Shown here: piece by piece, positions 144 through 14,716 of the stretch | Numbering within the stretch: the stretch's first letter is position 1 | Layout: each line of letters starts with the position of its first letter | Assembly (NCBI GenBank): GCA_030536575.1 | Contig: JAUNPS010000001.1 | Location: 153,595-217,594, forward strand | Length of the DNA stretch: 64,000 nucleotides | Origin: Eubacteriales bacterium | GTDB lineage: Bacteria > Bacillota > Clostridia > Lachnospirales > Lachnospiraceae | Reading direction: 5' to 3' | Notes under the pieces: generated by a model | Seen by the model: only the letters and a program-made list of their open reading frames with translations | What the model was told of the DNA's origin: nothing | Database searches by the model: none | Program-made: the position numbers and the translations under genes

Positions 144-1829
144 TCACCCCTCCCTCATCCTCTCCACCAGTCCCGCCCGGTCCAGCTTCCCGCTGGCCGT
201 GCGCGGCATCTCCCCCAACCTTACAAACCTCTCCGGCACCATATACCCCGCCAGCCGCCCCTTCAGCGCCTTCCTCATCTCCTTTTCTTCCAACTCCCCG
301 ACGAAAAAGCACCACAGCTTCCCCGTCTCCTTCTGGAAAAGCACACATCCGTCCTTCCACCCCGGTATAGCACGCAGCGCGGCCTCCACCTCTCCCAGCT
401 CCATCCGATAACCCAAATGCTTCACCTGCGCATCGCGCCTCCCCAGCACCACAAGCTGTCCGTCCTCCCGCAGATATCCCACATCCCCGGTATGGTAAAA
501 GCGCTCCTGCCATCCCTTCTTAAGCGGATCGTTCACCCAGGCCGCGGCCGTGCGCGTCCCATCCTGGTAATACCCCGCCGAAATCCACGGGCTGGAAACC
601 AGCATCTCGCCCGGCGTCCCCGCCGGAACCTCCCTGCCCGCTTCATCCACAAACAGGAGATGCGCCAGGGGAAATGGCCTTCCCACCGGAAGCGGTTCTC
701 TTTCCTTTGGCGGCCCTTCCACCTTCCCCACCGCCACGGAAAAGGCCTCGGTGGAGCCGTAGAAATTCCACCACCGTGCGTTCGGCGCAGCCTCCATCCA
801 GGCGACGAGAGGCCTCCAGGGCATCGCCTCCCCCGACATAATTCCATAGCGAAGCTTTGGCAGGCACCCCGCCTCCAGCGCATCCGTCACCCCGACAAAG
901 CTCGATGGCGTCATCGTCAGCTCCGTCACATGGTTTCTGTTCAAGCACTCAATAAATTTCTTCGGGAAAGAAAGCACGCCCACCGGAAGCAGATAAACCG
1001 CCGCTCCCAGCGCCACAGGCGGAAACACGTCGATGATCGAATTTGCGTAGAAAAACGGCGACTGATTCCCGAAAATCACATTTTCATCAAATCCATACGC
1101 GGCAATCGTCGCCTCCGTCCAGTGCAAATAGCTGAAATGCGTCTGAACCGAACCTTTAGGAATGCCCGTAGACCCGCTCGTATATAAAATCGACACCGGG
1201 TCATAAACACTCGACCGCCGCCGGATTTCCTCCAAAACCGCCGCATCCGGCTCCACCCTCACCGCATCCTCATACGAAAGCACCGCCCCAAACAGAGCCT
1301 GCCCGCCAGGCGCGCCCGCGCAAACTTCCACCAGCCCCGGCGCTCCAACCTCCGACCCGGCCGCACATAACCCCAGGCCCGCCGCGCGAATCTCAGCCCC
1401 AGCCACGCCAGACTCCAGCCACGCCGCGCAAATCTCCGACCCGACCGCGCCAGATTCCAGCCCCGCCGCGACCGCGCCAAGCCCCTCAACCACCTCCCTC
1501 CCCTTCTCATCCACCAAAACAACTCCCGCCCCCAATCCTCTCAAAATCCCCGCCAGCCTCTCCCCCGGCATCGTCACATCCACCACCGCATACGCACACC
1601 CCGCATACACCGCCCCAAACATCACCGGCACATTCCAAATACTCCTCCCCTCCATCAAAACTGCCACCGGCCTCCTCCCAACCCCCATCCGCGCAATCGC
1701 CGTCCCAATCCTTCTCGCCCTCTCCCTCAGCGTCCCAAAATCCATCTCCTCCCTCTCATCAAAAAACGCCACGCGCTCCGGAACCCTCTCCGCCGTCCTC
1801 TCCAAAAACTCCAAAACATTCGTAAACAT
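144..1829 (-). CDS. AMP-binding (adenylation) enzyme, DltA-like, with internal repeat
   Basis: 561 residues from the ATG at 1829, chosen because an AAAGGA motif lies just upstream; two in-frame ATGs lie 9 and 18 bases earlier with poorer spacing. It is an ANL-superfamily adenylating enzyme: A3 TSGSTGIPKG (about 218-226), A5 FYGSTE (356-361), A7 YHTGD (445-449), A8 GYRMELGE (473-480) and A10 ASGK with Lys548. It should activate a carboxylic acid as acyl-AMP and load it on the carrier at 6124-6363. Core A4 reads YANS, so the Asp that binds the alpha-amino group in amino-acid-activating domains is Ala262. About 60 extra residues (115-178) form Ala/Gly-rich 14-residue repeats. It is the last gene of the operon; the true substrate is unknown. 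Confidence 0.85.
   Translation of the reverse strand: MFTNVLEFLERTAERVPERVAFFDEREEMDFGTLRERARRIGTAIARMGVGRRPVAVLMEGRSIWNVPVMFGAVYAGCAYAVVDVTMPGERLAGILRGLGAGVVLVDEKGREVVEGLGAVAAGLESGAVGSEICAAWLESGVAGAEIRAAGLGLCAAGSEVGAPGLVEVCAGAPGGQALFGAVLSYEDAVRVEPDAAVLEEIRRRSSVYDPVSILYTSGSTGIPKGSVQTHFSYLHWTEATIAAYGFDENVIFGNQSPFFYANSIIDVFPPVALGAAVYLLPVGVLSFPKKFIECLNRNHVTELTMTPSSFVGVTDALEAGCLPKLRYGIMSGEAMPWRPLVAWMEAAPNARWWNFYGSTEAFSVAVGKVEGPPKEREPLPVGRPFPLAHLLFVDEAGREVPAGTPGEMLVSSPWISAGYYQDGTRTAAAWVNDPLKKGWQERFYHTGDVGYLREDGQLVVLGRRDAQVKHLGYRMELGEVEAALRAIPGWKDGCVLFQKETGKLWCFFVGELEEKEMRKALKGRLAGYMVPERFVRLGEMPRTASGKLDRAGLVERMREG
1302..1469 (-). repeat. 42-bp coding tandem repeat (four 14-residue units)
   Basis: Inside the adenylation gene, residues 121-176 read as four degenerate 14-residue units of the pattern AAGLESGAVGSEIC, each 42 bp. 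The array lies between the N-terminal part and A3, where the paralogous enzyme at 4640-6127 has no such block. Confidence 0.65.
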
Positions 1830-2039: not shown

Positions 2040-3092
2040 TCACGCCGACTCAAAAAATTCATACCCCTCATACCACTTCTTTGCACACCTCTCATAAGAC
2101 GCATACGCCTCATCCCCCCGCCTGTCCAAAATCCCATACCTCTCCCTCAAATCCTCCCCCAACTTCCTTGAAAACGTCACACTCCCCTTCACATTCAAAT
2201 GCTGCCAATCCGCAAAATCCGACGAATACCGCAGCCCAAACCGCAAATCCGGGTCATTGTAATCAATCCCACCAAACCCATACTCCTCCGCAACATTCCA
2301 CAGCGCATTATAATACATCTGATCCGCCGCATAATCCGGATTCGGAATCCCCACCAGCATCACCTCAATCCCCTCTTCCCTGCACAACTCAAAAATCTTC
2401 CTCGCATACGCCTCCTCCCTCTCATTCAGCTTCCTCCCCATCGTCGTCGCCACCACCGACGGCCTCTGATGGCTCTCCACCTCATCCACCTCAATAAACC
2501 CCTTCCAATCCTTTCCGCGCCCGCCATTATCCGGCGGCAGCACAAAATCCTCCGCCGTCAGCGACCCGTAATTATTATGTACCTGCGGCAATCCCAACAG
2601 ATAATCCAACGCCTCCAGCGGCTCCTCCACACAAGCCAGAATCGCCCCGGCCCGATTTTCCAGGCCCCTGATTCCATAAGTCGAAAGAATCGTCCTCCCC
2701 CGCTTCGAATAATCCCGCGTATACGCCGAAGCCTTCGCATCCAGCAAAATCACCTGCGGACTCTGCGTCTTTAATGCCTCCCGAATCGCATAATAACTGA
2801 CCCAGAACGGCTGCTCCGCGCTGCACAGATCATAAGCGGCAATGCCATACTCCGACCACAGCACATTCGTATTCACCCCCGCATAAACCAGGCTGGTTCC
2901 CACCGCCAGCACATCCACGCTGTCCTCCTCCTGCTCATACAGATTCATCATACTGCAGATCCCATAATCATGCTTCGGCGTCAGGACATACGTCGCATAA
3001 GACAGCAAAACGCCGGCGATCAAAAAAAATCCGATCACCCGCATCCAAAACCGCCCCAACACCCTTCTCCTGCTTTCCTTCTTCTCTTCCAT
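2040..3092 (-). CDS. DltD-like SGNH-fold exported protein
   Basis: 350 residues from the ATG at 3092 behind GAGGTGATTGCC; the longer open frame upstream is not needed. One N-terminal membrane segment (about 18-38) puts the rest outside the cell. GTS at 65-67 gives the nucleophile-type Ser67, and DWQH near the C-terminus gives Asp295/His298, the usual SGNH arrangement and the same general plan as DltD. DltD-like proteins work with an MBOAT to move an activated acyl group onto an extracellular polymer. It starts 10 bases after the MBOAT stop and is presumably co-translated with it. Sequence similarity to true DltD looks low, so the acceptor (teichoic acid or another glycan) is not fixed. Confidence 0.75.
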   Translation of the reverse strand: MEEKKESRRRVLGRFWMRVIGFFLIAGVLLSYATYVLTPKHDYGICSMMNLYEQEEDSVDVLAVGTSLVYAGVNTNVLWSEYGIAAYDLCSAEQPFWVSYYAIREALKTQSPQVILLDAKASAYTRDYSKRGRTILSTYGIRGLENRAGAILACVEEPLEALDYLLGLPQVHNNYGSLTAEDFVLPPDNGGRGKDWKGFIEVDEVESHQRPSVVATTMGRKLNEREEAYARKIFELCREEGIEVMLVGIPNPDYAADQMYYNALWNVAEEYGFGGIDYNDPDLRFGLRYSSDFADWQHLNVKGSVTFSRKLGEDLRERYGILDRRGDEAYASYERCAKKWYEGYEFFESA

Positions 3093-3102
3093 GGCAATCA
3101 CC

Positions 3103-4659
3103 TCAAAACTGCGTATACAAAAACGCCGCCCCGTCAAACTCCGGCCCATAAACGCCCAGCACCAGGATTCCAAGCAGCAATGCCAGCAAAACCTGCCACC
3201 GCACCCAAACCCGCGCCTTCGCAATCCTCCCGCACACATCCACTCCGCGCTCGCCCAGAACATCCACCGCCAGCAGCACCAGCAATGCAATTCCCGCGAT
3301 CACCCACTCCCGCACCGTCATAATTCCCGTCATCCGCTTTGCAAACCCGGAAAAATCCCACCCGGAAAAACTCTGCAAAAGCAGCGAAAACCCCTGCCGC
3401 GGCCCGGAAGTAAACGCAAAATACTGCGGAATCAATACCAAAATCCATGTCCGTGCCACACGGACGCCCCGCATCCAACCTCCCTTTGGCGTTCGAAACG
3501 TCCGGTTCATCTTTTTCCACAACGGCGTAAGCAGAATCGCCCCCGCCATCACAAATCCGAAATACGCCCCATAAATGACCGCATTCCAATTCGCCGTATG
3601 CCACACCCCGATCAGCAGAAACACCAAAAACGTTCCCACCACCGTCGGCACCAACCGCCCAACCATCTTTCCAAACACCTTCGAAGCCGCCCGCCCAAGC
3701 GCCAGCCCCGCCTTCGACGTCGTAAACGGATACAGCAAATACGACCGGAACCACGCCCCCAGCGTCCGATGCCACCGCCTCCAATACTCCGCCACACTCT
3801 CCGAAAAGAACGGCCTCCGGAAATTCTCCGGCAGCACAATGCCAAACATCTGCGAGATCCCCCTCACCACATCCACCCCGCCGGAAAAATCCGCGTACAG
3901 CCGCACCATATAAAGCGCCGCGCCGCCCACTGCCATCCACCCCGGAAGCCCTTCCTCTCCCAGCAGAACCGCCGTCGTCAGCGCCAGCCTGTCCGCGATC
4001 ACCAGCTTTTTAAAATAACCCCAAAGCATCCGCAGGAATCCCCCGCTCACCACTTCCGGTTCTAAAACATGTTCCTCGAAAAGCTGTCCGCCCAGCTCCT
4101 TCCAGGCAGAAATCGGCCCCTGCGTCATCTGCGGGAAATACCCCAGAAACAGCCACATTTTCAACGGATTTTTCTGCGCCTGCGCCTTCCCCCGGTAAAC
4201 GTCCACCAGCCATCCCGCCGACTGAAACGTAAAATAACTCAGCCCAAGCGGCGCCGCCAGTTCCCACACCGGAAACGACCACCGCCCCTGCCCCAGATCA
4301 TTCAGCCAGGCTGCGGCCGCAGGCTCATATTTCAGAAAAGCCATTGCCCCAAGGTCGAACGTCAGCAGCATTGCCAGGACTATTTTCTGCAATGTTTCAT
4401 ACCGCTTTACGCTCCGGCCTGCCCCTTCCGTACTCCGAAGATCCGCTTCTTTTCGCTTCAGAATCTCCAGCACAAGGCCTCCCAGCCACACATTCCACGC
4501 CACAACCGTCAGATGTACCACGCTTCTCCATCCGGCGCAGGACACAAAAAGAAAGCTGCCTAAAAGCAGCGCCAGCCAGCGCCGTCTCCTCGGCAGCAAA
4601 TAATAGACCATCCACACCGCCGCCGTAAAAAACAGAAACTCAAACGACAGAATGCTCAT
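3103..4659 (-). CDS. MBOAT family O-acyltransferase (DltB/AlgI-like)
   Basis: 518 residues with many hydrophobic helices. The MBOAT signatures are present: YWRRWH with His297 and LIGVWHTANW with catalytic-type His354. It should take an acyl group from the cytoplasmic carrier and pass it across the membrane. The last residues read FLYTQF, a C-terminal F-x-Y-x-x-F pattern shared with the second MBOAT at 43721; published work on DltX points to such a C-terminal Tyr motif as the acyl relay, so a separate DltX may not be needed. The start overlaps the end of the upstream adenylation gene by 20 bases, which implies translational coupling. Confidence 0.88.
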   Translation of the reverse strand: MSILSFEFLFFTAAVWMVYYLLPRRRRWLALLLGSFLFVSCAGWRSVVHLTVVAWNVWLGGLVLEILKRKEADLRSTEGAGRSVKRYETLQKIVLAMLLTFDLGAMAFLKYEPAAAAWLNDLGQGRWSFPVWELAAPLGLSYFTFQSAGWLVDVYRGKAQAQKNPLKMWLFLGYFPQMTQGPISAWKELGGQLFEEHVLEPEVVSGGFLRMLWGYFKKLVIADRLALTTAVLLGEEGLPGWMAVGGAALYMVRLYADFSGGVDVVRGISQMFGIVLPENFRRPFFSESVAEYWRRWHRTLGAWFRSYLLYPFTTSKAGLALGRAASKVFGKMVGRLVPTVVGTFLVFLLIGVWHTANWNAVIYGAYFGFVMAGAILLTPLWKKMNRTFRTPKGGWMRGVRVARTWILVLIPQYFAFTSGPRQGFSLLLQSFSGWDFSGFAKRMTGIMTVREWVIAGIALLVLLAVDVLGERGVDVCGRIAKARVWVRWQVLLALLLGILVLGVYGPEFDGAAFLYTQF

Positions 4660-6127
4660 CTTCTACCTCCCGTCTGACCTGCAGGCGGTCAATTTTCCCG
4701 CTCCCCGTCCGCGGAAGCTCCTCCCGCCTGTGCCACTCATCCGGCAGCATATAGCGCGGAAGCACCTTTCGAAGCGCCGCCTGAACCGTCCGCTCAGAGG
4801 CCTCCCCGGTATAAACCCCGACAATCCGCTCGCGGGCCGCATCATAATAACAGCAGCCAAGCAAAACGCCCTCCACCGCATTTAACGCGCCCTCGATCTC
4901 GCCCAGCTCAATCCGGTAGCCGTTCCGCTTAATCTGCGCATCCCGCCGTCCCAGAAACAGCAGCTCGCCCCTCTCATTCCACGCGCCCAGATCCCCGGTG
5001 CGGTAAATCCTTTCCGAAATCTGCGGCCGCAGCGGATTCGGGACAAAAACCTCCTCCGTCTTTTCCGGCGCATTGTAATAGCCTGGGGAAAGGCAGGTTC
5101 CGCCCACGCAAATCTCGCCGTCGATCAGCAAAATCCGCGTATTCGCGCAGGGCTTCCCGATGGGAAGGCTGTCCGTATCGGCAAACGCACGGTCTACCCG
5201 ATACCAGGTACACACATCCGTGATCTCCGTAGGTCCGTACATATTCACATAATCCGCCTCCGGCAGCGCCGCCCGCCAGCGATTCAGCACCCGGCAGGCC
5301 ATGGTTTCCCCGCAGAAAAACACCCGCCGCATCTCCGGCAGCATTCCAGGCTCCAAAACCTCCGCGTTCGCCACCGCCGCCAGCGCCGACGGCACCCAGA
5401 ACAGGGTATCGATCCGTTCCCGCCGAAGCGTTTCGACGAGCCTCTTCGGAAACAGGAAATCCGACCGCGGAACCAGACAGAGCGTCCCCGCCATCCGCAT
5501 TGTCCCATAAATGTCCAGCACCGAATTGTCGAAATAGAACGGAGCCTGGCTGGCAAACCGGCATCCCCCAGGCAGGCGCAGCGCCCCGCAGGCCCACTCC
5601 ACAAAATCGATCACATTCCGATGCGTAATCGAAACGCCCTTCGGAATCCCCGTCGAACCGCTGGTAAACAGCACATACAGCAGGTCACAGTCAATCTGCG
5701 CCTCCCGCCGTTCCCGCAGCGCTGTCTCATCGATCTCTTCCGGAACGTCCTCCGCCGCACAGACAAGCGCGCCTTCGGCAATCCGCCCCGCAGTCTCCGC
5801 AAGCCGCCGTTCGCATAAAACAACCCTCGGTTCTAAAGTCGAAACCACCAGCCGCATCCGCGCCTCCGGCATCGACGAATCCAACGGCGTATAAAAGCAA
5901 TTCGCATACACCGCCCCAAGCATCGCCGCCACGCACTCCGGGCTTTTCTCCATCAGGATCAGAACCGGGGACTGCGCAGGAATCCGCCTGGCCAAAAATG
6001 ACCCGATTTCCCGCGCTTTCCGCCAAAGTTCCAACCATGTCCGATACGCTCCGGACTGGCCGCAGGCGTCCGTGTGGGGCGCACACGAAGCGGCGTTCTC
6101 CAGCCAGTCCAGCACATTGCGCATCAT
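4640..6127 (-). CDS. Amino-acid adenylation enzyme, DltA-like
   Basis: 495 residues, close to the usual DltA length. ANL motifs are all present: FTSGSTGIPKG (154-164), MYGPTE (296-301), YRTGD (375-379), NGYRIELGE (402-410) and GSGK with Lys478. Core A4 is FDNSVLD with Asp200, the residue that contacts the alpha-amino group in amino-acid-activating domains, so an amino acid (D-Ala or another) is the likely substrate. It starts within the carrier stop codon (ATGA overlap at 6124-6127) and runs into the MBOAT, which supports a carrier-adenylase-MBOAT unit. Whether it is specific for D-alanine cannot be read here. Confidence 0.88.
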   Translation of the reverse strand: MMRNVLDWLENAASCAPHTDACGQSGAYRTWLELWRKAREIGSFLARRIPAQSPVLILMEKSPECVAAMLGAVYANCFYTPLDSSMPEARMRLVVSTLEPRVVLCERRLAETAGRIAEGALVCAAEDVPEEIDETALRERREAQIDCDLLYVLFTSGSTGIPKGVSITHRNVIDFVEWACGALRLPGGCRFASQAPFYFDNSVLDIYGTMRMAGTLCLVPRSDFLFPKRLVETLRRERIDTLFWVPSALAAVANAEVLEPGMLPEMRRVFFCGETMACRVLNRWRAALPEADYVNMYGPTEITDVCTWYRVDRAFADTDSLPIGKPCANTRILLIDGEICVGGTCLSPGYYNAPEKTEEVFVPNPLRPQISERIYRTGDLGAWNERGELLFLGRRDAQIKRNGYRIELGEIEGALNAVEGVLLGCCYYDAARERIVGVYTGEASERTVQAALRKVLPRYMLPDEWHRREELPRTGSGKIDRLQVRREVEDEHSVV

Positions 6128-6363
6128 GGCCGCGCCTGGCAGATGCGGATAAACTCCAGCATTGCCTGCACATTGTTAAAATTCTCCGGCTCGATATCCC
6201 CAGTCTTAATCTGAATCCCAAAGGCCTCATCCAGCCCGGCAATGATCTGCGTCAATGCAATGGAATCGATCAGCCCGTCGTCCACCAGCGCCGTCTCCTT
6301 CGCAAAATCAATCTCGTCATCCACTTCCGTCAAAACGCCCAGCAGCTTTTCCATTTCTCCCAT
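6124..6363 (-). CDS. Acyl/aminoacyl carrier protein (DltC-like)
   Basis: 79 residues from the ATG at 6363, placed 8 bases after GGGAGG; a GTG two codons earlier sits too close to that site. The motif DGLIDSIALT carries the phosphopantetheine Ser34. The size, acidic character and helical pattern fit a carrier of the DltC/ACP group. It should receive an acyl or aminoacyl group from one or both adenylation enzymes and donate it to the MBOAT. It follows the transporter ATPase gene by only 23 bases and overlaps the adenylation gene by four. No phosphopantetheinyl transferase is in the window. Confidence 0.88.
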   Translation of the reverse strand: MGEMEKLLGVLTEVDDEIDFAKETALVDDGLIDSIALTQIIAGLDEAFGIQIKTGDIEPENFNNVQAMLEFIRICQARP

Positions 6364-6386
6364 CGTCACAGCCTCCCTCTTTGCAG

Positions 6387-7496
6387 TCAGGCATTGATCC
6401 GCTTTTCCGTCAGCGGGTCAAACAGATGCAGCTTCGCCCGGTTCGGCTTCAAAAACAGCTTCTTCTCCTTCGGAGCCATCTCACCGGTGTACTTAAACAC
6501 CACCACCTTGTCGCCCACATGGACGTAGATCAGATACGCGTCGCCCAGCGGCTCGATGGAATCCACACTGGCCTCGATGGCATCCGCGCCCTCCTTCGCC
6601 AGCTCGAAATCCGACGGCCGGATTCCCAAATCCACCTGTTTCCCGGAATAGCCGCTCAGGCAGTCCTTGAGGTTTTCCGGAATTTTCAACTGGAATGCGC
6701 CGCCGTCCAGCACATCCCCCTTCACCTTGCAGCGGAACAGGTTGATCTGCGGCGTGCCGAGGAATCCCGCCACGAACTCGTTCGCCGGATGGTCGTACAG
6801 GTCGTTCGGCGTCCCCTGCTGCATGATCTTGCCCTCTTTCAGGAGAACAATGTGATCGGCCATTGTCATCGCCTCGGTCTGGTCATGGGTAACGTAAATC
6901 GTCGTAATGCCAAGCTGTTCCTGAATCTTTTTCAGCTCATAGCGCACCTGGTCGCGCAGCTTCGCATCCAGGTTCCCCAGCGGTTCATCCAGGAGGAACA
7001 CCTGCGGGTCGCGCACCAGGGCTCTCCCCAGCGCCACACGCTGTCTTTGTCCGCCGGACAGTTCCGCCGGGCGGCGATCCAAAAGCTGTTCGATAGACAG
7101 CATATTCGCCATATAATTCACGCGCTTCTCGATTTCCTCCTTCGGCGCTTTCTTCGTTTTCAGGGCAAAGGACATATTTTCGCGCACGGTCATGTTTGGG
7201 TAAAGGGCGTACTCCTGGAACACCATTGCAATGTTCCGCTCCTGGGGCGGCACGAAGGTCTTTTCCTTCTTCGAGCCGTCCGCCAGGGTCATCACCTCGT
7301 CCCCAAAACGGATTTCGCCTTTTACCGGGTGCAAAAGCCCCGCGATACAGTGCATTGCCGTGGATTTCCCGCAGCCGGAGGGGCCTAAGAATACACAGAA
7401 TTCACCGTCTTTGATCTCCAGGCTGAACTTGTCCAGCACATAGGATTTTCCTTTATTATAGGATACGCTCATATCCTGAATCGTAATGGAAGCCAT
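6387..7496 (-). CDS. ugpC: ABC transporter ATP-binding protein, MsmX/UgpC type
   Basis: 369 residues. Walker A GPSGCGKST (38-46), signature LSGGQ (146-150), Walker B VFLLDEP (166-172) and a C-terminal regulatory/TOBE part of about 130 residues mark the CUT1 sugar-transporter ATPase group. In Firmicutes such ATPases energise several transporters that lack their own. It lies in the operon with one complete set of permeases (9430-11359), and may also serve the permeases at 54604-56372, which have no ATPase nearby. The ribosome site GAGGAAAGG is well placed. The carrier-protein gene begins 23 bases downstream. Confidence 0.93.
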   Translation of the reverse strand: MASITIQDMSVSYNKGKSYVLDKFSLEIKDGEFCVFLGPSGCGKSTAMHCIAGLLHPVKGEIRFGDEVMTLADGSKKEKTFVPPQERNIAMVFQEYALYPNMTVRENMSFALKTKKAPKEEIEKRVNYMANMLSIEQLLDRRPAELSGGQRQRVALGRALVRDPQVFLLDEPLGNLDAKLRDQVRYELKKIQEQLGITTIYVTHDQTEAMTMADHIVLLKEGKIMQQGTPNDLYDHPANEFVAGFLGTPQINLFRCKVKGDVLDGGAFQLKIPENLKDCLSGYSGKQVDLGIRPSDFELAKEGADAIEASVDSIEPLGDAYLIYVHVGDKVVVFKYTGEMAPKEKKLFLKPNRAKLHLFDPLTEKRINA

Positions 7497-7530
7497 AAGA
7501 CCACCTTTCCTCTCTCCGATTTTCCTGCGG

Positions 7531-9417
7531 TTATGCGCCGAAGGATTCCACTTCTATGCCAAATCCGTACTCATACAGCGGGTCTTCGATGTCTTTGGGA
7601 AGGTCTTCCCGCTGGGCCAGCACCTGTTCCATGCTCGCCGGAATCTGGAACGGCAGCTTTCCGGTAATGGCCGTCTCCCCATAAAGGGCCTCCGCCACCG
7701 CCTCCGCGCCGCAGGTCACGCCCGGACGGTACACCAGCAGCACACTGTCCGCCGTCTCCGCGATCGGGGTCAGCACGTAAGCGCGGTTCATGACAACCAC
7801 CGCTACGACATTCGCTCCGGCAGCTTTCAGCGCATTGACTAACGCCGTCTGCTCCTCCGGGAATTCCAGCGTATCCGCACCCCATTCCGGGTCGTGGGTT
7901 CCGCTCTTCTCGCCTACGACTACGACCGCCGTTGTCCCGGACAGGTCTGCGGGAACTTCCTTTGCCGTCTCGATGTAAGTCACATTTTCCGCTCCGGCCT
8001 TCTCCTGCATTGCTTCCAGCATCGTCGTGCCCGTGATCTCCATCGGCTCTTTCGCCGTCCAGCCGCTGTTCAGCGCGCGCACATCCGTCGCCAGGCTGCC
8101 CGCCACAACGATCTGCTCCCCGACAAGGGACGCCGCATTTTCATATTTCACCAGCGTGAAGGACTTCGCCGCCGCTTCTTTCGCAACCGCCTTATGTTCC
8201 TCGCTTCCCACGATTTCCTCTGCTTTCGTCTCGTCCACATACGGATTTTCAAAAATGCCAAGCTTAAATTTCGCGGTCAGAATCCGGCGGCAGGCATCCG
8301 TCAGCCGTTCTTCATCTACTTCCTCCGCGAGCTGTTTCGTGGAGCGTGCGCCCGCGCCGCCTAAAATATCGGCTCCGGCATTGGTCGCGCCCACAAAGTT
8401 CAGGCCCCAGTCGGTCTGGATCAGGCCCTCATAACCAAGTTCGCCCCGCAGCAGATCGGTCATAACCGCCGCCGACTGATCCGCGGAATTTTCCACCGCG
8501 TCGCCGCCCAGGTACGGAACCGTCGAATAGCCATAGGGCATCACAGCCGCCGCTCCCGCCTCGATCGCCGCCTCGAACCCGGCCAGATGCAGGTCAATGG
8601 AATCCTCCTGAATCGTCAGCGCCGTTCCATCCACGCCGTCCGTCTGCGCGCCTGCGCCCGGAAAATGCTTCACCGTGGCAATCACCGACTCTTCCGTCAG
8701 TTCGCTTCCGCCCTGCAGGGCCTGCACAGCCGCCGTAATCAGGCTCTGCACCGTCTCGCTGTCCTCGGAATAACATTCCTGGTTCCGTCCCCACCGGGGA
8801 TCGGTGATCAGATCCGCATCCGGGGAAAGGGCCATCCGCACGCCCACCGCCATCAGTTCTTCCTTCAGCACCGTATTCAATTCCGCCACAAGCTCCGGGT
8901 CATTGGCCGCGCCCTGATTGATCTCGTCGGGCAGGAACGTGGCGTCGCTGACAAAGGCCGCCCCGGCTTCCGTATCCATGGAAAAGATGATCGGAATCCC
9001 AAGGGTGCTGGCCTCAGACAGTTCCTGAATCTCATTCGTCCGTGCCGCAGCTTCGGCCGCGCTGTCAAAAATGTACTCATACACCAGCGCGAAGCCCACA
9101 TTGTTCTCCGTAAACCAGCTCTCCTTACTGCTGACCAGCGTCAGATGCACCATCTGAGCGGCCTTCTGAGTCGCGTCCATCCGGCCAAGCAGGTCTTCCG
9201 CCCGCTCCTCCGCCGTCAGCCGCCAGTCCTCATAGGGGTCTAACTGGCCATTGTCATTCAAATCTTTAAACTGATAACCATCCGCTTCGATGATATTTTT
9301 TATTCGTGCCACAAGCTCAGGCTGTACTACGGTTTCTTCCGCATAGGCGGCCGGCATCGCGGCCAGGCCAAGCGCCGCTGCCATCCCAAGAGCCATTGCT
9401 TTTCTTCTTTTTTTCAT
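7531..9417 (-). CDS. Secreted glycoside hydrolase family 3 protein
   Basis: 628 residues with a signal peptide ending near AYA-EE (about 26) and no lipobox. GH3 features are KHFPGAG (250-256) and the nucleophile loop LIQTDWG with Asp336; the C-terminal GH3 sandwich domain follows. Near the N-terminus an EF-hand-like loop, DLNDNGQLDPYEDW (52-65), may bind calcium. The likely activity is beta-glucosidase or a related exo-glycosidase outside the membrane, feeding the neighbouring transporter. A paralogue lies at 11377. The start follows AAAGGAGG. Its exact glycan substrate cannot be read. Confidence 0.9.
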   Translation of the reverse strand: MKKRRKAMALGMAAALGLAAMPAAYAEETVVQPELVARIKNIIEADGYQFKDLNDNGQLDPYEDWRLTAEERAEDLLGRMDATQKAAQMVHLTLVSSKESWFTENNVGFALVYEYIFDSAAEAAARTNEIQELSEASTLGIPIIFSMDTEAGAAFVSDATFLPDEINQGAANDPELVAELNTVLKEELMAVGVRMALSPDADLITDPRWGRNQECYSEDSETVQSLITAAVQALQGGSELTEESVIATVKHFPGAGAQTDGVDGTALTIQEDSIDLHLAGFEAAIEAGAAAVMPYGYSTVPYLGGDAVENSADQSAAVMTDLLRGELGYEGLIQTDWGLNFVGATNAGADILGGAGARSTKQLAEEVDEERLTDACRRILTAKFKLGIFENPYVDETKAEEIVGSEEHKAVAKEAAAKSFTLVKYENAASLVGEQIVVAGSLATDVRALNSGWTAKEPMEITGTTMLEAMQEKAGAENVTYIETAKEVPADLSGTTAVVVVGEKSGTHDPEWGADTLEFPEEQTALVNALKAAGANVVAVVVMNRAYVLTPIAETADSVLLVYRPGVTCGAEAVAEALYGETAITGKLPFQIPASMEQVLAQREDLPKDIEDPLYEYGFGIEVESFGA

Positions 9418-9429
9418 AGATTTCCTCCT

Positions 9430-10326
9430 TTAAGATGCCGTTACCGCGCCGCTCATCTGGCCCGCAATCAGATATTTTCCCATAAAAATGTACAGAACCA
9501 GCACCGGGAACGCCAGGATCAGCGAACCGGCCATCTGTACGTTAAATTCCGCGGCCATTGTCCCCGCCAGCTCATTTAACGCAATGGTTGCGGGCTTCGA
9601 ATCGTAACCGCCCAGTACCAGCGCAAACAGCATTTCATTCCAGATCGACGTGCACTGGAAAACAAAAACGGTAATCGTTGCAATGCGGGTGTTCGGCACC
9701 ACGATCTTCCGGTAAATCTGCCACATTCCATTCCCGTCGATCATGCCCTGGCGGATCAGCGCGTCCGGCACATCCGCGTAATAGCCCCGCATCATGACGG
9801 TGCACATCGGCATTCCGAACACGGAATGCACCAGCACCAATCCCCAGATATTGTCATAGAGATCCAGCGCATTGATGGTCTGGAGAAGCGGGATCAGAAT
9901 CGCCTGAAACGGCAGATAGGTCGCCGCTACCAACGCGATAAAAAACACATTGTTCAGCCGGAACTTCCATTTGCTGAGCGCGTAGGCACAGACGGAACCC
10001 AGAAAGACGGAGCCCGCGGCTCCAAGCAATGTCACCACCAGGGAGGTCATCAGGGGCTGCGCCAGCACTTCCATAGCGCTCGCATAGCCTTCCAGCGTCC
10101 AGACCGTTGGCGGAGTGATCGGCGTCGTGGTCATAACTTCGCTGTTTGTTTTAAAAGAAGTCATCACCGTTCCCCAGAAGGGCAGCATATAAAAAACCAG
10201 AAAAGCCACCATAATTGCGTAATAAACCACATGCAGGACGGTCATATGCCATTTCGGCTTTACACGGATCGTCTGCGCCTGCTGGTCTGCCTTTGAGCGC
10301 TCGATGCTTAAATTCGTATTCTGCAT
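9430..10326 (-). CDS. Carbohydrate ABC transporter permease, MalG type
   Basis: 298 residues with six predicted membrane helices. The inner-membrane component loop around residues 190-215 (the EAA region, here DALIRQGMIDGNGMWQIYRK) is where the ATPase docks. It should pair with the MalF-type permease directly upstream; the two genes are one base apart. The start follows AGGAGGAATTAAA. It belongs to the CUT1 transporter with the binding protein at 13349 and the ATPase at 6387. Confidence 0.92.
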   Translation of the reverse strand: MQNTNLSIERSKADQQAQTIRVKPKWHMTVLHVVYYAIMVAFLVFYMLPFWGTVMTSFKTNSEVMTTTPITPPTVWTLEGYASAMEVLAQPLMTSLVVTLLGAAGSVFLGSVCAYALSKWKFRLNNVFFIALVAATYLPFQAILIPLLQTINALDLYDNIWGLVLVHSVFGMPMCTVMMRGYYADVPDALIRQGMIDGNGMWQIYRKIVVPNTRIATITVFVFQCTSIWNEMLFALVLGGYDSKPATIALNELAGTMAAEFNVQMAGSLILAFPVLVLYIFMGKYLIAGQMSGAVTAS

Positions 10327-10327
10327 T

Positions 10328-11359
10328 TTAATTCCTCCTGTTCGTCCAATAGGTCAGCGGCAGGATTAAGACCAGCACCAGCGCCAGCAGAAAGCAGCTA
10401 ATTGCCGCCGAATAGGCAAAGTTATTGTTCTGGAACGCCTCGTTGTACATCCAGACCGGAAGCGTCCAGGCCGACGAGGTGGTGTAGCCCACCAGCGAAA
10501 CGATAAAGTCAAAGGAGCGCAGGGCGTACATGGCAAGGATCGTGATGCAGCTTCCCATCGCGCCTTTGAGCTGGGGAATGATCAGTTTCAGGTAAATGCG
10601 CGGCATGTAAGCGCCGTCCAGTTTCGCGGCGTTGATGATGTTTGTCGGCACGTTTTTGATCGCGGCCAGGAAAATGACGGCCACATACCCCGAAAACTGC
10701 CACACCATTGCAATGATGATCGAAAGCATGATCGTCGAATTCGACGACGCCCACATCAGATGGCCGTTTTTCATCGCGCCTGCCACGTCCACCCCCAAAA
10801 GGCTGAGAAAGGAGTTCAGGACGCCGCCCGTGGGCCGATACATGTACGCCCATACTGTTCCAGTTACAACAAAGGACAGTGCAAACGGCAGCAAAATCAG
10901 CGTCCGAAACAGCGCCGTCCCCCGCAGGCCCTGATCCATCAGAAGGGCAAGGCCCAGGCCCAACGCCAGGCAGAGGGGAATCAGGCAGAACAGCAGAAGC
11001 GTATTGCGAAGGGCAGGCCAGAACTCCGAACTCGTAAACATTTTTACATAATTTCCGAAGCCTCCAAATCCATAGCTGGCCTCCAGCGCGCCGTTTTCCC
11101 AGTCGGATACGGACACCCACAGGTTCCATCCCAGGGAAACGTACACGAAATAAATCAGAAGTGCGGCCGGTATCCAGATCCAGATCAGCGGATGGCGGTT
11201 AAAAAACCGCTGGGCGGGCGCCACCGCCGCCGGAGCAAACTGTTTCAGGAGCTGATAGCCCAGGAGGAGGGCTATCAGCACAACAAAGAGTATCCAAAAC
11301 CGACCGTTTGAAAAGGTCATAGAGCGAAAATTGTCAAGAAATTCCGTAAGCTGTTCCAT
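10328..11359 (-). CDS. Carbohydrate ABC transporter permease, MalF type
   Basis: 343 residues from the ATG at 11359, seven bases after AGGAG; the ATG two codons earlier abuts that site. About seven hydrophobic helices include an extra N-terminal one (residues about 20-35). The EAA region NIINAAKLDGAYMPRIYLK is present. It forms the channel with the MalG-type partner at 9430. It lies 18 bases after the second GH3 gene in the operon. Confidence 0.92.
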   Translation of the reverse strand: MEQLTEFLDNFRSMTFSNGRFWILFVVLIALLLGYQLLKQFAPAAVAPAQRFFNRHPLIWIWIPAALLIYFVYVSLGWNLWVSVSDWENGALEASYGFGGFGNYVKMFTSSEFWPALRNTLLLFCLIPLCLALGLGLALLMDQGLRGTALFRTLILLPFALSFVVTGTVWAYMYRPTGGVLNSFLSLLGVDVAGAMKNGHLMWASSNSTIMLSIIIAMVWQFSGYVAVIFLAAIKNVPTNIINAAKLDGAYMPRIYLKLIIPQLKGAMGSCITILAMYALRSFDFIVSLVGYTTSSAWTLPVWMYNEAFQNNNFAYSAAISCFLLALVLVLILPLTYWTNRRN

Positions 11360-11376
11360 AGGCATTCTCCTGTCGT

Positions 11377-13359
11377 CTATTCGTCATAGCTCAGGCCCCA
11401 GCCGTAGTCGTAGAGCGGGTTTTCCAGATCGAAGGAAACGTCGCCCTCCTGGCTGTTGACGGATTCCATGTCGCGCGGGAACTGGATCGGCGTCTTGCCG
11501 GTGGGGTTGTTCTCGCCGTAGATGGTTTCCGCAATGGCGATTCCGCCCTGAGAGCCCGGATAATAAGCTTCCAGAATGGCATTCGTATTTTCGTCGCACC
11601 AGGTCAGGATGTAAGGGCGTCCGCCCGTCACGACGGTGATTACCGGTTTCCCGCTCGCAACCGCGGCTTCCAGAATCTCCTGCTGGCTGTCAACGATTTC
11701 CAGCGTGTCATAGCCCCATGGCGGATCGTGCTGGTAGCTGGGTTCTCCGACGGACACCACGATCACGTCCGCTTCGCCGGCAAGCTCCTTGATGCGTTCC
11801 ACATCCTCCGGCTCATAAATGACCGTCGTGTTCTCGCCCGCATAAGCTTCCAGCGCCCCTGCAATGGTCAGCCCGTCCTGCTCGGAAGACCAGCCGCCCA
11901 CCAGCGAATCCATATCGCCCGCACGGGGGCCGCAGACGAGGATGGTCTGCTCCGCATTGGCATCCAGCGGCAGGATGCCGTCGTTTTTCAGAAGGGTCAT
12001 AGCCTTTTCGGCCGCTTCCAGGTTCACCTGCTGGTGCTCTTCATTGCCCACGAAGGACACCGCATATTCTACGTCACAGTACGGGTTTTCAAATACGCCC
12101 AGCTCAAATTTTGCTTTCACAATGCGCTTCGCCGCGGCGTTTAAAATTTCCTCGTCAATTTTTCCGTCATTCGTATATTCTTCCATCTGGTCGATCAGGC
12201 GGATGGACTCCCCGCCGATTCCGTCCACGCGGCTCTCGGTCACGCCGATCAGGATCGCTTCCTCATCGGAAACTTCCTCGCCCGTCATGGTTCCCAGCGC
12301 TTCCTGGATGGCCCAGATCATGCCCCAGTCGGTCTGAATAATGCCTTCAAAGCCCATTTCGTCCCGGAGTAAATCCTGCAAGGTCGCCTTGGAACCAATG
12401 GCCGAATTTTCCATATCCAGTGCCAGCGGCACGGAATAATACGGCATAATCGAAGCAACGCCTACTTCCAGCGCCGCATAATAGGGCTGCAAGTGAATTT
12501 CCAGCGTCTCCTCGCTGGAGATGATCGGAGAGGTATCCTTCCCGTCCATCTGCGGGCCGGCCCCCGGAAAATGCTTCATGCAGGCCACAATGGAGCCTTC
12601 ATTCAGGCCGTCCGAGCCGTTCTGGAAAGCGACCACCTGCGCCGTCACCATCTGCGTCACCAGATCGGGATCTTCGCCAAAGGTTTCCATGACACGGCCC
12701 CAGCGCGGTTCGGACGCAATGTCTGCTTCCGGCGAAAGGGTCATGCGCACCCCGATGGCAATGTGCTCATCCCGTGCAATTTCCGCCAGTTTTGTCACCA
12801 GTTCCTCATCACGGGTGGCGGCCAGCGCCAGATTATGCCCGGTCACGGTCGCGCCGGATACGTAGGACAGGCCGTGGACGGAATCCATGGACACCAGAAC
12901 CGGTACACCCAGACGGGAACCCTCCGCGTATTCCTGGATGGTGTTCATATTCGTTGCGGCGGCTTCTACGCTGCTCAGTTCCCGGATCAGCAGCATGCCG
13001 ATGTTTTCCTGATTACACCACTCTTCCAGATAAGACGGGATTTTTCCGTCCGAACGGGGCAGGTAGGTGGGGTGCTGCATCTGTGCGATTTTTTCCCGGA
13101 CGGTCATCTGGCTCACCAGGTCGTCCGCGCGGGTCTCGGCGTCTTCCCGCCAGTCTTCGTAGACGTCCAGCTCACCGTTGCTGTTCAGGTCAATGAATTG
13201 ATAGCCGTCCACTTCTAAAATTGATTTTACATGCGGGTTCAGTACCGGCTGTTCATAAGCCGTCCCTTCGGCAAACGCCGTACCGGTGAACAGCGTCCCG
13301 GCCAGGGCGGCCGTCTCCACCAGGGAGAGGCCGCGTTTTAACATCTTTTTATTCAACAA
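11377..13359 (-). CDS. Secreted glycoside hydrolase family 3 protein
   Basis: 660 residues. The frame begins at TTG 13359, behind AAGGAG and overlapping the end of the binding-protein gene by 11 bases; the first ATG (13344) has no good ribosome site. A signal peptide ends near AFA-EG (30). GH3 motifs are KHFPGAG (262-268) and IIQTDWG with nucleophile-type Asp344. Like its paralogue at 7531 it has an EF-hand-like loop, DLNSNGELDVYEDW, near residue 57. Retaining beta-glucosidase-type activity on extracellular oligosaccharides is likely. Two related GH3 enzymes in one operon suggest different linkages or aglycones. Confidence 0.9.
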   Translation of the reverse strand: MLNKKMLKRGLSLVETAALAGTLFTGTAFAEGTAYEQPVLNPHVKSILEVDGYQFIDLNSNGELDVYEDWREDAETRADDLVSQMTVREKIAQMQHPTYLPRSDGKIPSYLEEWCNQENIGMLLIRELSSVEAAATNMNTIQEYAEGSRLGVPVLVSMDSVHGLSYVSGATVTGHNLALAATRDEELVTKLAEIARDEHIAIGVRMTLSPEADIASEPRWGRVMETFGEDPDLVTQMVTAQVVAFQNGSDGLNEGSIVACMKHFPGAGPQMDGKDTSPIISSEETLEIHLQPYYAALEVGVASIMPYYSVPLALDMENSAIGSKATLQDLLRDEMGFEGIIQTDWGMIWAIQEALGTMTGEEVSDEEAILIGVTESRVDGIGGESIRLIDQMEEYTNDGKIDEEILNAAAKRIVKAKFELGVFENPYCDVEYAVSFVGNEEHQQVNLEAAEKAMTLLKNDGILPLDANAEQTILVCGPRAGDMDSLVGGWSSEQDGLTIAGALEAYAGENTTVIYEPEDVERIKELAGEADVIVVSVGEPSYQHDPPWGYDTLEIVDSQQEILEAAVASGKPVITVVTGGRPYILTWCDENTNAILEAYYPGSQGGIAIAETIYGENNPTGKTPIQFPRDMESVNSQEGDVSFDLENPLYDYGWGLSYDE

Positions 13360-14716
13360 GGTTCCACGCTCCTTCCACGCCTGCTTCTTTCAGGATGTTC
13401 ACAATTTTGTTGGCGAAATATTCCGCGTCGTGATCCGAAGAAGTGGCAAATTCCTGAATCTGGGTCTGTAAGCTGGTCGATGCGCTCCAGGGAAGCGCCG
13501 TGCCGTGCGTAAAGCTCGGAAATACCTTCGTATCCTCTGCCGTCAGCTCATTTTTAAAGTTCAAAGTCAGTTCACAGTAGGTTTCGTCCGGGGTGTCGCT
13601 GTAGGGTGAAATGGATTCTTTCAGAGAGGAGAAGGCTGTCTGTACTTCCTCTGTGGACACATTGTAGGCCCAGCGCAGTCCGCTCTCCACATCCGCCGAA
13701 TCATTGCTCACAACAAACCCGTCGATGCACATCCCAAACCAGCCGTCCGTGCCGGGGAATGTGAACACGCCGTAATCTTCGCCGTAAACCTGTCCCATGG
13801 AAGTCATCAGCGGCTGCATCCACGCGCCCATGATCTGCATCGCATAGGTTCCGGCTACCACCTGCCCGGAAGTCTCGTACCAGTCGCGGCTGGAATGGTC
13901 CGGCGCAACGTAGTCCATCAGTTTCGCGTAGGTGGACAGTACCTCGGTCACGTCCTCCACGTTATAGGTTCCATTGATAAAATCCTGATAAATCTGCGGG
14001 TCGGTGCCAAGCATGATATCCTCGAACACCTGGCAGGCGGGCCAGCCTTTCCGGTCGCCCAGATCCAGGGGGTATTCGCCGTCCGGCATTGCCGCGGCGA
14101 GCTGGTCGCAGATGTCCCAGAATTCTTCCCAGGTGATGTCTTCGTGATCCGGAATTTCCACGCCGTATTTCTCGAATACGTGAATATTGTAGAAAATCAC
14201 ATTGGACTTATGGATGCCGATCGGCACGATGTATTTGTTTCCGTCCGACGCCGTACAGAGCTCTTCCAGCCCCGGAAGGGCGCGTTCGGAGAGATTTCCG
14301 TAGTCCCATACCTGGTTCAGGTTCAGCAGGAGGTCGGAGGTCAGATAGGGTTCGATTTCCTGGCCCGGATGCGCCTGGAAGGTTTCCGGGCTTTTTCCTG
14401 CCTGCTGCAATACTTTGACTTTCATAACCATTGCGCCGCCTGCACCGCCGGGGATCGCATTGGACTTCGCTTTCGTTTCCGTGTAGGTGTCCGAAAAGCT
14501 GGAAACCACGCTCTCGATGGCGTCTTTCTCGCCGCCGGCTGTCCACCAGTGGTAGACATTTGCCGTGCCTTTCGCTTCGGTGTCTTCCAGAATCGCCGGA
14601 ATGTCCATTTCATCGGCGTTTTTCTTTTCTGCTTTGGCGGCAAAGGCGCTCATCGGGAGGGTGCTAAGAGCCAGCGCGCCCGTCAGCGCCAGTGCGCAGA
14701 GCTTTTTGAATTTCAT
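13349..14716 (-). CDS. Extracellular sugar-binding protein of CUT1 transporter
   Basis: 455 residues. The signal peptide ends at about AFA-AK (27) with no Cys for lipidation, so it may be released or held by other means. The body fits family 1 solute-binding proteins, with aromatic-rich stretches such as VYHWWTAGG near the mature N-terminus. It captures the oligosaccharide for the permeases at 9430-11359. It begins 13 bases after the CBM9-type gene and its stop overlaps the start of GH3 (11377). Confidence 0.9.
   Translation of the reverse strand: MKFKKLCALALTGALALSTLPMSAFAAKAEKKNADEMDIPAILEDTEAKGTANVYHWWTAGGEKDAIESVVSSFSDTYTETKAKSNAIPGGAGGAMVMKVKVLQQAGKSPETFQAHPGQEIEPYLTSDLLLNLNQVWDYGNLSERALPGLEELCTASDGNKYIVPIGIHKSNVIFYNIHVFEKYGVEIPDHEDITWEEFWDICDQLAAAMPDGEYPLDLGDRKGWPACQVFEDIMLGTDPQIYQDFINGTYNVEDVTEVLSTYAKLMDYVAPDHSSRDWYETSGQVVAGTYAMQIMGAWMQPLMTSMGQVYGEDYGVFTFPGTDGWFGMCIDGFVVSNDSADVESGLRWAYNVSTEEVQTAFSSLKESISPYSDTPDETYCELTLNFKNELTAEDTKVFPSFTHGTALPWSASTSLQTQIQEFATSSDHDAEYFANKIVNILKEAGVEGAWNLVE

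Follow-up and report, generated by a model that had tools for sequence, protein, structure and literature searches.

A Dlt-like operon with two adenylation enzymes, one of which has alanine in place of the pocket aspartate

The window analysed here, a stretch of DNA of 64,000 nucleotides, contains an operon that encodes two adenylation enzymes, A1 and A2, beside a single small carrier protein (ACP), an MBOAT acyltransferase and a DltD-like protein. The genes are transcribed from the minus strand in the order ACP, A1, MBOAT, DltD-like, A2 and would together form one Dlt-like operon for envelope acylation. A2 has alanine at the site of Asp235 of GrsA, the residue that contacts the alpha-amino group of the substrate. 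Judged from the sequence, there is roughly an even chance (probability about 0.5) that the substrate of A2 is an acid whose activated carboxyl has no alpha-amino group beside it, and that A2 charges the shared carrier with this acid. The features concerned, all on the minus strand, are as follows.

144..1829, minus strand: A2, the second of the two adenylation enzymes (561 aa; Pfam AMP-binding at E 5.5e-54, plus AMP-binding_C)
186..188, minus strand: codon AAG for Lys548 in TASGKLDR of A2, kept (sequence motif)
753..755, minus strand: codon TCC for Ser359 in YGSTE of A2, at the place of the A5 Pro, which most of the family keeps (95/99 Asp-bearing members)
1044..1046, minus strand: codon GCA for Ala262 of A2, at the site of Asp235 of GrsA (alignment)
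1331..1470, minus strand: 42-bp tandem repeat, 3.3 copies, in frame in the A2 gene (repeat finding and alignment)
2040..3092, minus strand: DltD-like protein, probably of SGNH/GDSL type, with Ser67 in GTS and D295xxH298 (motifs)
3103..4659, minus strand: DltB-like MBOAT acyltransferase containing both His motifs, WRRWH and GVWH (27.4 bits with Pfam MBOAT, cut-off 27)
3106..3123, minus strand: FLYTQF, fused acyl-shuttle hexapeptide FxYxxF at the extreme C-terminus of the MBOAT protein (motif)
4640..6127, minus strand: A1, first adenylation enzyme, code DNLFFCMDV, Asp235 and YGPTE kept (TIGR01733, 338 bits)
6124..6369, minus strand: ACP, 81 aa, DSIAL with Ser36 (codon 6262-6264; Pfam PP-binding 24.8 bits, cut-off 20.8)
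6387-7496, minus strand: ABC-transporter ATPase, 17 bases upstream of ACP (name read from sequence)

The ACP and A1 genes overlap by 4 bases and the A1 and MBOAT genes by 20 bases. A2 starts at the ATG at 1829; its frame is open to 1985, and Pfam was run on the frame from 1847. In the ORF translations, A2 reads NQSPFFYANSIIDVFPP at the site, giving Ala262, and A1 reads SQAPFYFDNSVLDIY at its Asp site, so that FFYANSIID in A2 stands against FYFDNSVLD in A1. When the A1 and A2 proteins of the window and of a second genus are aligned together, Ala262 and the Asp of A1 share a column, and a phmmer alignment places Ala262 opposite the Asp of 'yifdisv' in linear gramicidin synthetase, a solved domain. 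The Asp of IID, five residues past the Ala, is position 240; it is no substitute for Asp235, because A1 also has Asp there. The pocket codes were read at positions 235, 236, 239, 278, 299, 301, 322, 330 and 331. A2 has ANITISFSV in both genomes, in which a search by sequence alignment for another acidic pocket residue found none among the nine, and A1 has DNLFFCMDV in both. Asn at 236 is common to the two enzymes. The Cys of A1 at 301 is presumably Cys269 of DltA. The A5 motif of A2 is FYGSTE, with Ser instead of Pro in the A2 of either genome; Lys548 is the catalytic lysine of motif A10. The difference at the Asp site described by the sequence-only reading was thus confirmed by the alignments and by the same Ala in the orthologue of the second genus. 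In DltA of Bacillus cereus the corresponding residue is Asp197 (PMC4176424), and A1 resembles DltA in having kept it.

The 42-bp repeat of the A2 gene is part of an Ala/Gly-rich insert that is absent from the orthologue. Tandem repeats of 46 bp lie between the DltD-like gene and A2, at 1869-1994, and a run of ten N is found just past the left edge of the window, 3' of the A2 stop codon (L007:13991-14000).

The second genome, G295, belongs to a different genus from the source genome, G000. Its locus L068 has the identical five-gene order ACP-A1-MBOAT-DltD-A2, and the flanking genes match as well over the 19.9 kb of L068 that were compared. The A2 frame of G295 abuts the DltD gene and contains FFYANSIID; the recurrence of the Ala in an orthologue from another genus makes a sequencing error or chance unlikely. 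Identities between the two genomes amount to 58.0% for ACP, 73.3% for A1, 66.9% for MBOAT, 73.1% for the DltD-like protein and 65.9% for A2, and in the best-match alignment of the family search the A2 of G295 was 72% identical over residues 189-564. In a point against the favoured substrate reading, it departs from the usual motifs in two places, with FRAGD for YRTGD and SLKLDR for SGKLDR. Comparison of the A2 genes gave dN 0.26 and dS 2.2, a dN/dS ratio of about 0.11 that is rough because dS is saturated; the values for MBOAT are dN 0.25 and dS 1.9. As far as sequence comparison can tell, A2 is a maintained protein under purifying selection, since the five-gene operon and the Ala are kept in G295 and its dN/dS is like that of MBOAT. 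Together with the kept motifs, the selection suggests that A2 is a working adenylation enzyme.

The ancestry of A2 bears on whether it is inactive, or a redundant or degenerating copy that shares the substrate of A1. A2 is 36% identical to A1 and lies on a long branch in free trees (stem 2.08 in one), where, as a caution, its partner L123 also has a long branch. Both trees unite A1 with L070 (support 97 and 86/76), which disfavours a sister relationship of A1 and A2. However, constraining the tree to unite A1 and A2 improved its score over the free tree by 7.8 log units (AU p 0.71), and neither placement of A2 with the Val-type clade (AU p 0.40) nor with four Ile types (p 0.46) was rejected. 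The Asn236 shared by A1 and A2 would fit an old duplication. A spare copy would agree with the long branch, with the repeat insert of the G000 copy, with the Asn236 in both enzymes and with a sisterhood that is not rejected. Arguing against it are the purifying selection, the retention of Lys548 and a code that is the same in both genera and quite unlike that of A1, and we regard it as very improbable. Derivation of the operon from a Val-type cluster (ACP-MBOAT-DltD-A) by insertion of A1 was also considered and is unsupported: in the tree, weak support (83) unites the window MBOAT with three clusters of the Ile type and not with the Val type.

The substrate of A2 was approached through adenylation domains in which the residue at 235 and the substrate are both described. 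PMC11253843 describes the solved alpha-keto-acid domain StsA, in which position 235 is Ile and Met replaces the A5 Pro; its M415P mutant has lost adenylation activity. For hydroxy-acid domains the same paper gives Ala at 235 in an engineered example and Gly in a natural one. A2 resembles the alpha-keto- and alpha-hydroxy-acid domains StsA and EnSynA1 described there in the small or aliphatic residue at 235, and StsA also in the replacement of the A5 Pro. It is unlike StsA and EnSynA1 in that it is a stand-alone enzyme, composed by Pfam of AMP-binding domains only, within an MBOAT operon. Keto-acid depsipeptide modules have an embedded ketoreductase; none was found in A2, for which Pfam gives AMP-binding and AMP-binding_C only. 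The rule that links residue 235 to the substrate has exceptions: McyG has Val at 235 yet activates Phe (PMC11253843), and HcaB has kept the Asp although its substrate is predicted to be a keto acid (PMC10949194). Residue 235 is therefore a lead and not proof. Ala235, the exchange of the A5 Pro for Ser and a code with no acidic residue would make a small alpha-hydroxy or alpha-keto acid the most likely substrate of A2. A1, with Asp235 and YGPTE, probably activates an amino acid.

To place A2 among its relatives, 119 distinct Dlt-like adenylases were compared, A1 and A2 of the window included. They are frames of 420 to 700 aa that match A1, A2 or the adenylase on contig C65 of the source genome at E 1e-40, with duplicates removed by their last 300 residues; the set is biased, because most loci were chosen by similarity to A2. 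At 235, Asp is by far the commonest residue (99 enzymes), followed by Ser (10), Ile (5), Val (3) and Ala (2), which leaves 20/119 without Asp, and on the FastTree tree 5 changes between Asp and non-Asp are needed. The codes are discrete and mostly follow the tree. Not counting A2, 18 enzymes lack the Asp; surroundings of at least 7 kb were available for 17 of them, the exception being L064, the tenth Ser type. Each of these 17 is the sole adenylase in its stretch; an MBOAT and a DltD-like gene are near 15 and a carrier near 16. These enzymes thus resemble A2 in having MBOAT, DltD-like and carrier genes mostly near, with Ser, Ile or Val at 235, and differ from it in being sole adenylases with other pocket codes. 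Two adenylases in one operon were seen in the window and in one of 70 loci of at least 7 kb (L068). L070 has two adenylases in separate clusters, and L007, counted among the 70, contains just the cut end of A2. According to these counts, what is rare is not the loss of the Asp, which has recurred, but an operon with two adenylases.

The A5 Pro is absent from both Ala types, all three Val types, one of the five Ile types, none of the ten Ser types and 4/99 Asp types, that is, from 6/20 Asp-less against 4/99 Asp-bearing enzymes. The counts suggest that Asp235 and the A5 Pro are lost as one joint change, but an independent-pairs test with n=3 pairs was not significant, and retention of the Pro in 10/10 Ser235 types argues against a reliable covariation with Asp loss.

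The genes around the Asp-less enzymes complicate the assignment. Within 6.5 kb of the adenylase, a gene for a PLP-dependent decarboxylase is present at 4/5 Ile-type loci, at 20/25 loci of the Asp-bearing DVK type and at 1/18 of the DAKC type; within the same distance none was found at 9 Ser, 3 Val, 2 DN and 7 other Asp-type loci, nor in the window or L068. Such decarboxylases act on amino acids, which makes it probable that the Ile types handle an amino acid despite the missing Asp. Four decarboxylases that were scored (L042:10684-11868, L040:10558-11730, L126:4347-5480 and L071:7008-8255) are LysA-like and TIGR03099-like (exosortase-associated) and fall below both cut-offs. Possibly they decarboxylate the carrier-bound amino acid before transfer. 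Perhaps the Ile-type enzymes activate their substrate through a side-chain carboxyl, for which the carrier-bound glutamate of butirosin biosynthesis is a precedent, and the same could hold for A2. A2 would then take an amino acid with a distant amino group (an acidic one by its side-chain carboxyl, or an omega-amino acid), or would hold the alpha-amino group in another way. The decarboxylases at 4/5 Ile loci favour this, as does McyG, which works without Asp235 (PMC11253843). We nevertheless consider it rather unlikely, since a decarboxylase is absent near the window operon and in L068, the A2 code has no acidic residue, and the A5 Pro, lost in A2, is kept in the four decarboxylase-linked Ile types (by elimination).

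The sequence-only reading had held that loss of the Asp goes with substrates lacking an alpha-amino group and had taken A2 for a non-amino-acid adenylase. The first statement agrees with StsA (Ile) and the hydroxy-acid domains (Ala, Gly) of PMC11253843 and is not supported as a strict rule, given McyG, HcaB and the decarboxylases at 4/5 Ile loci: Asp loss need not mean a non-amino substrate. For the second, the loss of the Asp in two genera, a code free of acidic residues and the replaced A5 Pro speak in favour, but Asp loss does not prove it.

A further question is whether A2 acts on the carrier of the operon. A2 might form an acyl-CoA or load a carrier encoded elsewhere and be placed in the operon for co-regulation only. 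Consistent with this are its divergence (36% identity to A1, stem 2.08) and its scores: 266.2 bits against a cut-off of 317.4 of the amino-acid adenylation model TIGR01733, and 169.9 against 139.9 bits for A1 on the acyl-CoA ligase model PRK06187. However, A1 of G295 likewise stays below the TIGR01733 cut-off (308.9, with 279.8 for its A2 and 338 for the window A1), the best families of A2 are still amino-acid adenylation and DltA, and A2 has the same position in two genera and abuts DltD in G295. This explanation is accordingly quite unlikely. In the favoured model, judging by gene order in two conserved one-carrier operons, the single carrier would be loaded by both A1 and A2.

All the proteins compared with Dlt equivalogs missed their cut-offs: A1 and A2 reached 280.7 and 210.4 bits with the DltA model TIGR01734 (cut-off 559.85), MBOAT 132.7 with the DltB model TIGR04091 (375) and the carrier 26.7 with the DltC model NF003464 (68). 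The DltD-like protein had no Pfam or NCBIfam match at E 0.001. A profile of eight DltD-like relatives gave a weak match to the GDSL hydrolase 7ddy (E 0.049); Asp and His (DxxH or DxxxH) are invariant in the eight, and the Ser is present in 7/8. Three DltD-like proteins (L090:8195-9322, L135:2399-3541 and L124:3746-4840) have Cys for the Ser of GxS, in GNCEAY or GDCEAY.

The window MBOAT matches the DltB structure 8jem (E 1.8e-18), and its G295 counterpart ends in FMYTQF. Among the MBOATs of the collected clusters (n=57), FxYxxF is present in 45 in its strict and in 53 in a loose form, GxWH in 57 and a WRRWH-type motif in 42. The Dlt pathway hands the acyl group on from its carrier to the Tyr of FxYxxF in DltX, and thence to DltD, and PatA has a similar motif fused to its MBOAT (PMC12148441). 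The same paper states that other MBOAT/SGNH pathways are carrier-less, evidently because they use acyl-CoA. Contrary to this statement, a carrier and a fused FxYxxF occur together in the window, L008, L038-L042, L068 and other loci.

The operon resembles Dlt (DltABCD plus DltX, teichoic acid D-alanylation) in combining an adenylase, a small carrier, an MBOAT and a DltD-like partner. It is unlike Dlt in having two adenylases, one of them without the Asp, and a shuttle motif fused to the MBOAT; its adenylases, carrier and MBOAT also score well short of the Dlt cut-offs, and its DltD-like protein matches no model. Like the peptidoglycan O-acetylation system PatA/PatB, it pairs an MBOAT with a C-terminal FxYxxF with a separate, probably SGNH-type protein (PMC12148441); whereas PatA takes acetyl-CoA and has neither carrier nor adenylase, the window operon has a carrier and two adenylases. 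We infer by analogy that the operon, though not to be filed as Dlt, functions in the manner of Dlt, using a fused shuttle of the PatA type. By likeness to both systems, the MBOAT would move the acyl group onto the Tyr of its own C-terminal FxYxxF, from which the Ser of the DltD-like protein would pass it to an extracellular acceptor.

A full-text literature search, with most subscription journals outside its reach, found no description of a two-adenylase Dlt-like operon. This and the presence in both genomes of two adenylases with a single carrier, MBOAT and DltD-like protein give partial support to the earlier proposal of an undescribed two-substrate system; Asp loss does not prove its non-amino substrate.

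Orthologues of A2 were sought in overlapping samples of larger groups, with the best candidates per genome scored (3 in family and order, 5 in class, 11 in relatives). With the window A2 as query, its genus (3 genomes), relatives (116) and family (397) were searched, and with the A2 of G295 its genus (1 genome), family (397), order (392) and class (291). These sampled searches yielded one orthologue, that of G295. At E 1e-85, 22/291 genomes of the class matched, G000 included; of the other 21, 8 were examined, and all 8 stretches hold a single adenylase with Asp235. No close orthologue appeared in a search of genome contigs (one match, 26%, in a Deltaproteobacteria MAG) or among plasmids (309 records matched, all below 60% identity).

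D-alanylation sets the charge of the envelope. If the favoured model is correct, a non-amino-acid adenylase on the same carrier would let the cell tune that charge by mixing esters. We tentatively envisage, with somewhat less confidence than the substrate class of A2, a Dlt-like machine with a fused shuttle and one carrier for two types of acyl group, an amino acid and an alpha-hydroxy or alpha-keto acid; an envelope glycan would then bear charged and uncharged esters mixed in a ratio set by the two competing adenylases. The Dlt-like family would also be a natural panel for studying a change of pocket substrate outside peptide synthetases, because it combines a common MBOAT framework and fused shuttle with discrete codes, some of them without Asp.

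No gene for keto- or hydroxy-acid synthesis was recognised within the operon, which weighs against such a substrate for A2. Farther upstream on the minus strand follow a beta-glucosidase-like protein, two permeases, a second beta-glucosidase-like protein and a solute-binding protein (names read from sequence), and the acceptor of acylation could be linked to this glycan use. The sugar-type ABC transporter and the beta-glucosidase-like proteins, which have signal-like N-termini, are encoded on the same strand and kept in G295 (window 6387-14716, L068:13412-19893). A response-regulator-like gene lies beyond A2 in the opposite orientation.

The source genome has a second cluster, with a single adenylase, on contig C65 (L008). 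At L008:2508-8799 it comprises a PP-loop protein, an adenylase with the code DVKIFSLCN, a formyltransferase-like protein, an ACP, an MBOAT ending in FAYAQY and a DltD-like protein (names read from sequence). Adenylase-carrier pairs in stretches in which no MBOAT was found occur in L089, L095, L114 and L115, inside apparent nonulosonic-acid (NeuB-like) or other surface-glycan clusters, again named from sequence; such pairs may therefore also feed other acyltransferases.
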